36,623 bases of DNA from Mycobacterium sp. Root265 (GTDB lineage: Bacteria > Actinomycetota > Actinomycetes > Mycobacteriales > Mycobacteriaceae), in NCBI RefSeq assembly GCF_001428895.1, contig NZ_LMJA01000033.1, positions 237,547-274,169 on the forward strand, written 5' to 3'. Positions 1 through 36,623 of this stretch are shown here, in pieces. Position 1 is the first letter of the stretch; each line of letters starts with the position of its first letter. The position numbers and the translations under genes are program-made. The notes beneath the pieces are model-generated. The model was not told where the DNA came from. It did not search any database and saw only the letters and a list, made by a program, of their open reading frames with translations.

Positions 1-325
1 GGCCAGCGCCTGCTGACCTTCCAGCTCTACGACCAGCAGGCCAACGTCCCCCTGGGCATCATCCCGCTGCTGCAGGTCGACATGTGGGAGCACGCCTTCT
101 ACCTGCAATACAAGAACGTCAAGGCCGACTACGTCAAAGCCTTCCGTCCCCCTGGGCATCATCCCGCTGCTGCAGGTCGACATGTGGGAGCACGCCTTCT
201 ACCTGCAATACAAGAACGTCAAGGCCGACTACGTCAAAGCCTTCTGGAACGTCGTCAACTGGGCCGACGTCCAGGACCGCTACGCCAAGGCCACCGCGAA
301 CACCGGCGGACTCATCTTCGGCTGA
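1..325 (+). pseudogene. sodA: superoxide dismutase (Fe/Mn), 3' part, frameshifted by a 100-bp duplication
   Basis: The first bases translate in frame 1 as the C-terminal third of a mycobacterial Fe/Mn superoxide dismutase. It includes the metal-ligand motif [11 protein letters not shown], whose Asp and His bind the metal. The 5' end lies outside the window. After ...DYVKAF the frame breaks because bases 45-144 are repeated exactly as 145-244; 100 is not a multiple of 3, so the normal ending ([16 protein letters not shown]...GGLIFG, stop 323-325) is in frame 2. As written, translation would leave SodA after KAF and run about 127 codons out of frame to a stop at 526-528, entering the next gene. 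The product normally detoxifies superoxide and is a major mycobacterial protein. Either the gene is really broken or the assembly duplicated a segment. Family identity is near certain; pseudogene status is not. Confidence 0.9.
45..244. repeat. perfect 100-bp tandem direct duplication inside sodA
   Basis: Copy 1 is 45-144 and copy 2 is 145-244, identical at every base. The flanks diverge at once: 44 is a while 144 is c, and 145 is c while 245 is t. There is no shared sequence at the junction beyond the unit itself. Removing either copy restores one continuous SodA frame. Confidence 0.97.
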
Positions 326-347
326 GTTCTCGTCTCTCAGGTCTCGG

Positions 348-7132: not shown

Positions 7133-7612
7133 ATGGCCGACGAGCAGGACCTTCCCGAACAGAAGGCCCCCGCTGAGCAGGTCCCGGCTGACCCACCTGC
7201 TGTGCCTCCCGCCGCCGAGGCTCCCGCGAAGAAGGCCCCGGCCAAGAAGGCACCGGCGAAGAAGGCCGCTCCCGTGAAGAAGGCCGCACCGGCCAAGAAG
7301 GCGGTCGCGAAGAAGGCCGCTCCGGCCAAGAAGGCACCTCCGGCGAAGAAGGCCCCGCCGGTCACAGCCACCCCTGCCGAGCCGGCTCCGGTCGTCGAGC
7401 ACTCTGCGGAACCGACGGCGGTCGCCAAAGAAGCCGCCAAAGAGGTTGCTGCACAAGCGAAGTCCGCGGTTGCCGCGGCCGTTCCGACACCGTCCGCGGT
7501 GCCGGCCCTCGGTCCGGAACAGTCCCGGCTGCCGCTGGCGGTCGCGCTGGCCGTCGGCCTGCTCGCGGTCCTGGTCGTTCTTCTGGCCCGCCGCAATTCC
7601 GACCAGGACTGA
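7133..7612 (+). CDS. hns: Hns, membrane-tethered histone-like protein (Rv3852-like)
   Basis: The 159-residue product has an acidic Pro-rich start, then a lysine-rich block of about 10 imperfect [A/P]AKKA repeats (residues ~28-75), an Ala/Glu spacer, and a C-terminal membrane helix (LPLAVALAVGLLAVLVVLLA) ending RRNSDQD. PAKKA-repeat DNA binding joined to a C-terminal anchor is the layout of M. tuberculosis Rv3852, and the gene sits in the same place just before rraA. The repeats resemble eukaryotic histone H1 tails. AAGGAG at 7119-7124 sets ATG 7133. It is longer than Rv3852 (134 residues); repeat number varies between species. It may attach DNA to the membrane. Confidence 0.92.
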   Translation: MADEQDLPEQKAPAEQVPADPPAVPPAAEAPAKKAPAKKAPAKKAAPVKKAAPAKKAVAKKAAPAKKAPPAKKAPPVTATPAEPAPVVEHSAEPTAVAKEAAKEVAAQAKSAVAAAVPTPSAVPALGPEQSRLPLAVALAVGLLAVLVVLLARRNSDQD

Positions 7613-7667: not shown

Positions 7668-8423
7668 ATGGACGTGAGAACCGTCGGCAACGTCGCCGCC
7701 CTGACCGGGCTGTCCGTGCGCACCCTGCACCACTACGACCACATCGGCCTGGTGGTGCCCGGCGTGCGGACTCCGGCCGGTTACCGGGGCTACACCGATG
7801 CCGATGTCGAGCGGCTGCACCTGGTTCTGGTGTATCGCGCGGCCGGACTGCCGCTGGATGAGATCCGCGTCCTGCTCGATGACCCCGAGGTCGACGGGCT
7901 GACCAGGCTGCAGCGCCAGCATGCCCTGCTCCTGGAGCGGGCCGAAGGTCTGCAGCGCAGCATCAGGGCAGTGGAGGAACTCATGGACGCGCATCGCAGC
8001 GGTATTCAGCTGACCGCCGAGGAACAGGTCGAGATCTTCGGCACCACGGCATTCGGCGAGGAGTATGCGGTCGAAGCCGAGCAGCGCTGGGGCGACACCG
8101 ACGAATGGAAGCAGTCCCGGCAGCGGGTCGCGCAGCTGACGAAACAGGACTGGATCGATCTGAAAGTCGACGGGGATGCGCTGCTGGGCGACCTGGCGGC
8201 TGCAAAGCGCGCCGGTGTACGTCCCGGCTCGCCGGAGGCCGACGCGCTGGCCGGCCGGCACCGCGCGAGTATCGACCGCTTCTACGATTGCGGCGGCGAG
8301 ATGCACCGCGGACTGGTCGAGATGTACCTCGCCGATGCCCGGTTCACCGCCCACTACGACGATGTCGAACCGGGTCTGGCGCAGTTCGTCCACGATGTGG
8401 TGATCGCTAGCATCATGGCGTGA
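7668..8423 (+). CDS. TipA-like MerR-family regulator (MerR HTH + TipAS domain)
   Basis: The 251-residue protein begins with a MerR winged helix ([20 protein letters not shown], then [13 protein letters not shown]), a coiled coil at about 75-110, and a TipAS antibiotic-recognition domain in the C-terminal half ([20 protein letters not shown]). Cys208 in that segment aligns by eye with the cysteine that captures thiopeptides such as thiostrepton in Streptomyces TipAL. Binding of a drug turns such proteins into activators of their own promoter, and a matching dyad promoter lies directly upstream. It is not between hns and rraA in M. tuberculosis, so it is an insertion in this lineage. Its stop overlaps the rraA start by 4 bp. 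Confidence 0.92.
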
Positions 8424-34695: not shown

Positions 34696-36529
<1,834 letters not shown>

Positions 36530-36623
36530 TGTCCTGAGTCATTAATTACGATCTAGTTGTTAATCTGGGTTGTGCCGACCCCTCATGCTGCTGAGATTGT
36601 GTTGTCTGCCGCCGAGCGTGCCG
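36530..36623 (+). mobile_element. left end of an IS630-type insertion sequence, cut by the window end
   Basis: After the methyltransferase stop the composition falls abruptly to AT-rich (TGTCCTGAGTCATTAATTAC, then an AT-rich leader). GTG 36572 then opens VPTPHAAEIVLSAAERA, which resembles the N-terminus of IS630-family transposases. IS630 elements insert at TA; a TA lies in the adjacent stop codon. The terminal repeat and right end are not visible. Confidence 0.6.
36572..36623 (+). CDS. transposase N-terminus (partial, IS630-like)
   Basis: Seventeen codons are visible (VPTPHAAEIVLSAAERA) before the window ends. The pattern hydrophobic-LSAAERA is typical for IS630-type transposases just before their helix-turn-helix. 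There is too little sequence for more than a family suggestion. Confidence 0.5.
   Translation, partial: MPTPHAAEIVLSAAERA

Follow-up and report, generated by a model that had tools for sequence, protein, structure and literature searches.

Introduction

In the output of scaffolders such as SSPACE, a negative gap between two contigs is written as a single n. The possibility that scaffold gaps are negative, with the flanking contigs overlapping, is dealt with in a passage of PMC3158087, and the relevant part of PMC8110574 mentions negative gaps in passing. False duplications are treated in the corresponding parts of PMC2864568 and PMC9516828 in general terms, or for vertebrate or diploid genomes. 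Here we compare with these systems a perfect 100-base tandem repeat that interrupts a superoxide dismutase gene (sodA) of Mycobacterium sp. Root265. From the arrangement of the letters around it, this repeat is almost certainly an assembly seam, at which overlapping contigs were joined end to end, and is not present in the cell.

Results

The repeat as deposited and its place in sodA

The window, i.e., the whole stretch of DNA that was analyzed (36,623 nucleotides, bases 237547-274169 of contig C30), belongs to a genome whose 30 contigs sum to 6,668,100 bases. It begins in the middle of sodA, one base past a single N. Positions upstream of it are given in the coordinates of L003, a stretch of C30 that runs into the window and in which this N is base 8000, immediately preceding window base 1. 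In the deposited sequence, window bases 45-144 and 145-244 are identical at 100/100 positions and directly adjacent (period 100), which is far beyond chance. The bases at the edges are unlike (44 vs 144, and 145 vs 245), so that the repeat is exactly 100 bases long and has no extra homology at its borders.

When the raw pieces of the gene were searched separately, matches to PF00081 and PF02777 identified it as a Fe/Mn superoxide dismutase with both SodA domains present. Sod_Fe_N (PF00081) was found on L003 7602-7997, and Sod_Fe_C (PF02777) on L003 7602-7997, window 1-144 and window 146-322. As written, the frame shifts at the repeat, the codons being read from window 1 before it and from window 146 after it, up to a stop codon at 323-325. 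The initial annotation had described a perfect, adjacent 100-bp duplication that lacks junction homology and breaks the sodA frame, and its coordinates, length and identity were exact, as were the lack of junction homology and the frameshift in the sequence as written. The round length to which it drew attention holds as a count of identical bases, but is best read as 99 common bases plus one position. The features are as follows.

1-144, + strand: part of the C-terminal domain of sodA (Pfam PF02777), directly after the N at L003 8000 and continuing the frame of the sodA sequence that precedes the window
45-143, + strand: 99 bases taken as common to both assembly pieces, first appearance (identical to 145-243)
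144, + strand: single position between the putative pieces, now a letter; it takes the place that the N has at those 12 isolated-N sites (of 64) where a duplication abuts
145-243, + strand: the 99 common bases again (identical to 45-143), with which the right-hand piece of the assembly would begin
244, + strand: base directly following the repeated 99 bases (145-243), unlike between the C30 and C4 copies of sodA (column comparison)
145-325, + strand: C-terminal end of sodA to the stop codon (PF02777 on 146-322, stop 323-325), in a frame other than that of 1-144 as written

A second duplication in the same gene and a second sodA in the genome

Another duplication with a period of 100 was found in the same sodA, 354 bases upstream of the window repeat. 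Here L003 7492-7590 is identical to L003 7592-7690 (99 bases), and a single N at 7591 stands between the copies. This N lies 553 bases before the putative seam in the window, and two period-100 duplications and two Ns are contained within 753 bases of the gene (L003 7492-8244). Window 1-144 was taken as the end of a left-hand assembly piece, with base 144 at the position that the N occupies in the upstream duplication, and base 144 would then be a former single-base gap, once written as N.

The genome carries a second, near-identical sodA, of which C16 and C4 each hold an outer part at a contig end. The end of C4 holds the 3′ part of this other gene, and over L003 7901-8144 (244 columns) it was unlike C30 only at 8000, which is N in C30, and at 8144. 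Past the start of the second repeat copy, C4 and C30 differ at 8244 and 8272-8274 within the gene, which ends at 8325, and all along the flank beyond it. The terminal base of C4 corresponds to L003 7901, exactly 99 common bases before the N column 8000. The 5′ end of C16 has exactly 99 bases in common with L003 7492-7590 of C30 (99/99 by blastn) and diverges at base 100. In the window, the 99 common bases 145-243 are likewise followed by a base, 244, that is unlike C4. The repeat lies at the border of sequence of which the genome has more than one copy. The middle of the second sodA, which is absent from C16 and C4, has probably been collapsed into C30.

Contig-end overlaps and isolated Ns in the assembly

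The sample of the same genome comprised both ends of the contigs (five short ones were taken whole), 14 interior stretches of 20 kb and the 20 kb upstream of the window. After L047, L048 and L053, which are wholly or mostly N, had been dropped, 67 stretches with 1,306,848 bases were kept; this sample is rich in contig ends, so that its rates are not those of a random sample. An isolated-N site was defined as a run of at most 3 N, and three longer runs (34, 92 and 64 bases) were set aside. An exact duplication abutted the N at 12 of the 64 isolated-N sites, with lengths of 99 (five sites), 98 (four), 97, 82 and 72 bases (one each), so that 10 of the 12 were 97-99 bases long. Many of the Ns that had no such duplication cluster near contig ends (L046, L060).

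Fifteen further arrays with a period of 60-160 were present in the 67 stretches, one of them being the upstream duplication in sodA. An N was found inside 13 of these arrays, and the two that have none are at L049 1273 (period 100, 97 bases) and in L072 (period 77). Among the 14 interior stretches, only one contained arrays (L088, two arrays, both with N).

When the contig ends themselves were compared, 23 exactly overlapping pairs were detected among the 55 usable ends (of 60), with 34 of the 55 ends involved. The overlaps measured 72 (one pair), 95 (one), 96 (three), 97 (two), 98 (seven), 99 (eight) and 243 bases (one), i.e., 95-99 bases in 21 of the 23 pairs. The 99 common bases at the window repeat are equal in length to these contig-end overlaps of the same assembly. 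In addition, the terminal 99 (27 ends), 95 (20) or 60 (2) bases of 49 of the 55 ends recur elsewhere in the contig-end stretches sampled. As a control, 24 stretches from related genomes, which overlap in part (110,389 bases), were scanned in the same way and yielded neither an array nor an N. A single array, with a period of 74 and outside the sodA match, was observed in Nocardia vaccinii among 80 named relatives (491,857 bases; 80 kept of 586 confirmed).

Apart from the N at L003 7591, eleven single Ns have 72-99 duplicated bases abutting them: L036 1312, L043 13898, L045 301 and 3191, L046 1269, L060 17794, L061 14487, L076 18860, L083 18402, and L088 651 and 1009. These are likely to be seams of the same kind, and could mislead gene calls.

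Other features of the window

The end of the window is also the end of its contig, and its last 98 bases (36526-36623) are identical to the first 98 of contig C1, and its last 30 bases are identical to bases 1-30 of C7 after reverse complementation. Judged by these matches, window 36526-36623 is the border of a multi-copy element. The copy of this element in C1 has a 366-aa ORF, which we take to be an insertion-sequence transposase by resemblance. Elsewhere in the window, a 159-aa ORF (7133-7612) combines a repeat of lysine, alanine and proline (TRF, 7220-7358) with a hydrophobic segment close to the C-terminus, and presumably resembles mycobacterial Rv3852 (Hns).

The locus in related genomes

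With window 45-330 as the query, 46 of 61 genomes were matched, the own genome included, and 15 gave no match. Among the matches listed for the 45 (of 60) other genomes that matched, none spans both copies, i.e., the repeat was not found to be kept in these relatives. The exact junction pattern gave 0 matches in the GTDB r220 genomes, a result that covers other genomes only, as records of the own genome may be left out of that search. In the plasmid collection 30 records matched, and none of the 20 listed covers 80% of the query; the features at these matches were superoxide dismutases, none, or unannotated.

In the sister genome G034 (2 contigs, with the matches on one of 5,801,417 bases), sodA is found at two loci. 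On either side of the gene, locus A runs collinear with C30 at about 86% identity, in alignments of 4,688 and 2,882 bases. Locus B has the flank of C4 on one side (3,791 bases, 86%), separated from sodA by about 1.2 kb of B without a match, and the flank of C16 on the other (3,039 and 921 bases, 84-86%). At each locus, the two window copies align to one and the same set of 100 bases, so that the block is present once per locus, and an open frame extends across the gene as far as its end; the sister has intact sodA copies. This arrangement supports the two-locus layout proposed for the genome of the window. The two matches of G014 were left out, being identical 6,152-base stretches and possibly a duplicate in that assembly, and so was an ungapped comparison with the two loci of G035, which did not end at stop codons. 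The two stretches of G012 had no blastn match to each other.

The sodA pairs were compared by means of L003 7492-8325 (which runs into window 1-325), L004 5004-5328, L055 and L056. Over the last 180 bases of the gene, without gaps, the two copies within a genome are 97.8% identical in the own genome and 98.9% in G034, and the identity between the genomes is 92.8-95.0%. Over 651 bases, the G034 copies show 97.5% identity to each other, with no match between their flanks. In the own genome the identity between the paralogues begins at L003 7492, ten bases before the GTG taken as the start. The pattern of identities suggests that the sodA loci have been homogenised both in the species of the window and in G034, perhaps through gene conversion between the paralogues. 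Among the publication titles listed in a literature search, none was on gene conversion of mycobacterial sodA.

Discussion

The seam is the preferred reading of the repeat because the length of the repeat is that of the contig overlaps, the 99 common bases end where the paralogues differ, and a second, N-bearing duplication is present in the same gene. Such a seam would have arisen in the following way. In a strain with two almost identical sodA genes, a short-read assembler, presumably one that works on a de Bruijn graph, would collapse the common part and break where the copies differ. The pieces cut from the graph would carry terminal 99 bases in common with their neighbours, and a branch-specific piece would open with these 99 bases, followed by its first specific base. 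A scaffolder would then have set two pieces side by side with a one-base gap and with the 99-base overlap unmerged, so that the overlap is written twice (99+1). The gap letter would have been filled later at the window repeat, and was left as N at the upstream one.

Some observations count against a seam. There is no N between the copies at window 144, which holds a letter, unlike the 12 N sites and L003 7591. However, an N is the usual mark of such a seam and does not define it, since gap filling can remove it, and the arrays of L049 and L072 show that an array without N is not unique to the window. In addition, two of the 12 duplications are shorter (72 and 82 bases), a duplication is lacking at 52 of the 64 isolated Ns, and lengths outside 95-99 bases were measured for two of the 23 overlaps (72 and 243).

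Besides a join artefact, for which the overlap length, the paralogue border and the second duplication in sodA provide strong support, the initial annotation had offered a very recent duplication, with loss of the normal SodA C-terminus or a phase-variation-like switch. A real duplication that frameshifts one of the two sodA genes, while the cell relies on the other, agrees with the letters as deposited; the loss of one gene could be tolerated, as a second one exists, and a natural duplication of 100 bases is conceivable even in the absence of junction homology. Nevertheless, chance alone would have to make its length agree with the 99-base overlap and its end with a base that differs between the paralogues, and would also have to put a duplication of the same period, with an N, in the same gene, so that we regard a real duplication as highly unlikely. 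A form of it in which the strain would be losing or switching one of its near-identical sodA genes, reversibly through recombination between the paralogues, is a shade less likely still. For a reversible duplication that would switch SodA by phase variation, the one argument is that recombination between perfect tandem repeats is possible in principle, but the same coincidences are needed, no listed match extends across both copies in the 45 matching genomes, and the lone array in the 80 named relatives lies outside sodA; the probability of such a switch is close to negligible. Both the real duplication and the switch were rejected on the geometry of the seam and on the relatives. A read-length artefact of another type (a duplicated read end or a polishing error) would account for a length of 100, but contig-end overlaps cluster at 95-99 and not at 100, and the common stretches at sodA end where the paralogues differ, which makes it extremely improbable.

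Read as a seam, the repeat is almost certainly an ordinary artefact, and evidence for neither a broken SodA nor a switch. It has no biological import, and nothing here shows that the sodA genes of the strain are broken. For this assembly, frameshifts or exact duplications of about 97-100 bases, above all those next to isolated Ns, should not be taken as pseudogenes. Comparing the duplicated length with the length of the contig-end overlaps is a quick check by which such findings can be sorted.

In its relation to known systems, the repeat resembles the negative-gap scaffold joins of de Bruijn assemblies, in that an exact duplication of overlap length is found at the border of a sequence present twice, and in that the genome sample has another 12 places, including one in the same gene, at which an N separates the copies. 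It differs from the usual joins of this kind here in that its gap position holds a letter and not an N. It is also like the false duplications described in the pertinent parts of PMC2864568 and PMC9516828, in which the assembly shows a duplication that the genome lacks; unlike the cases treated there, the one proposed here would result from a bacterial paralogue combined with a contig overlap.
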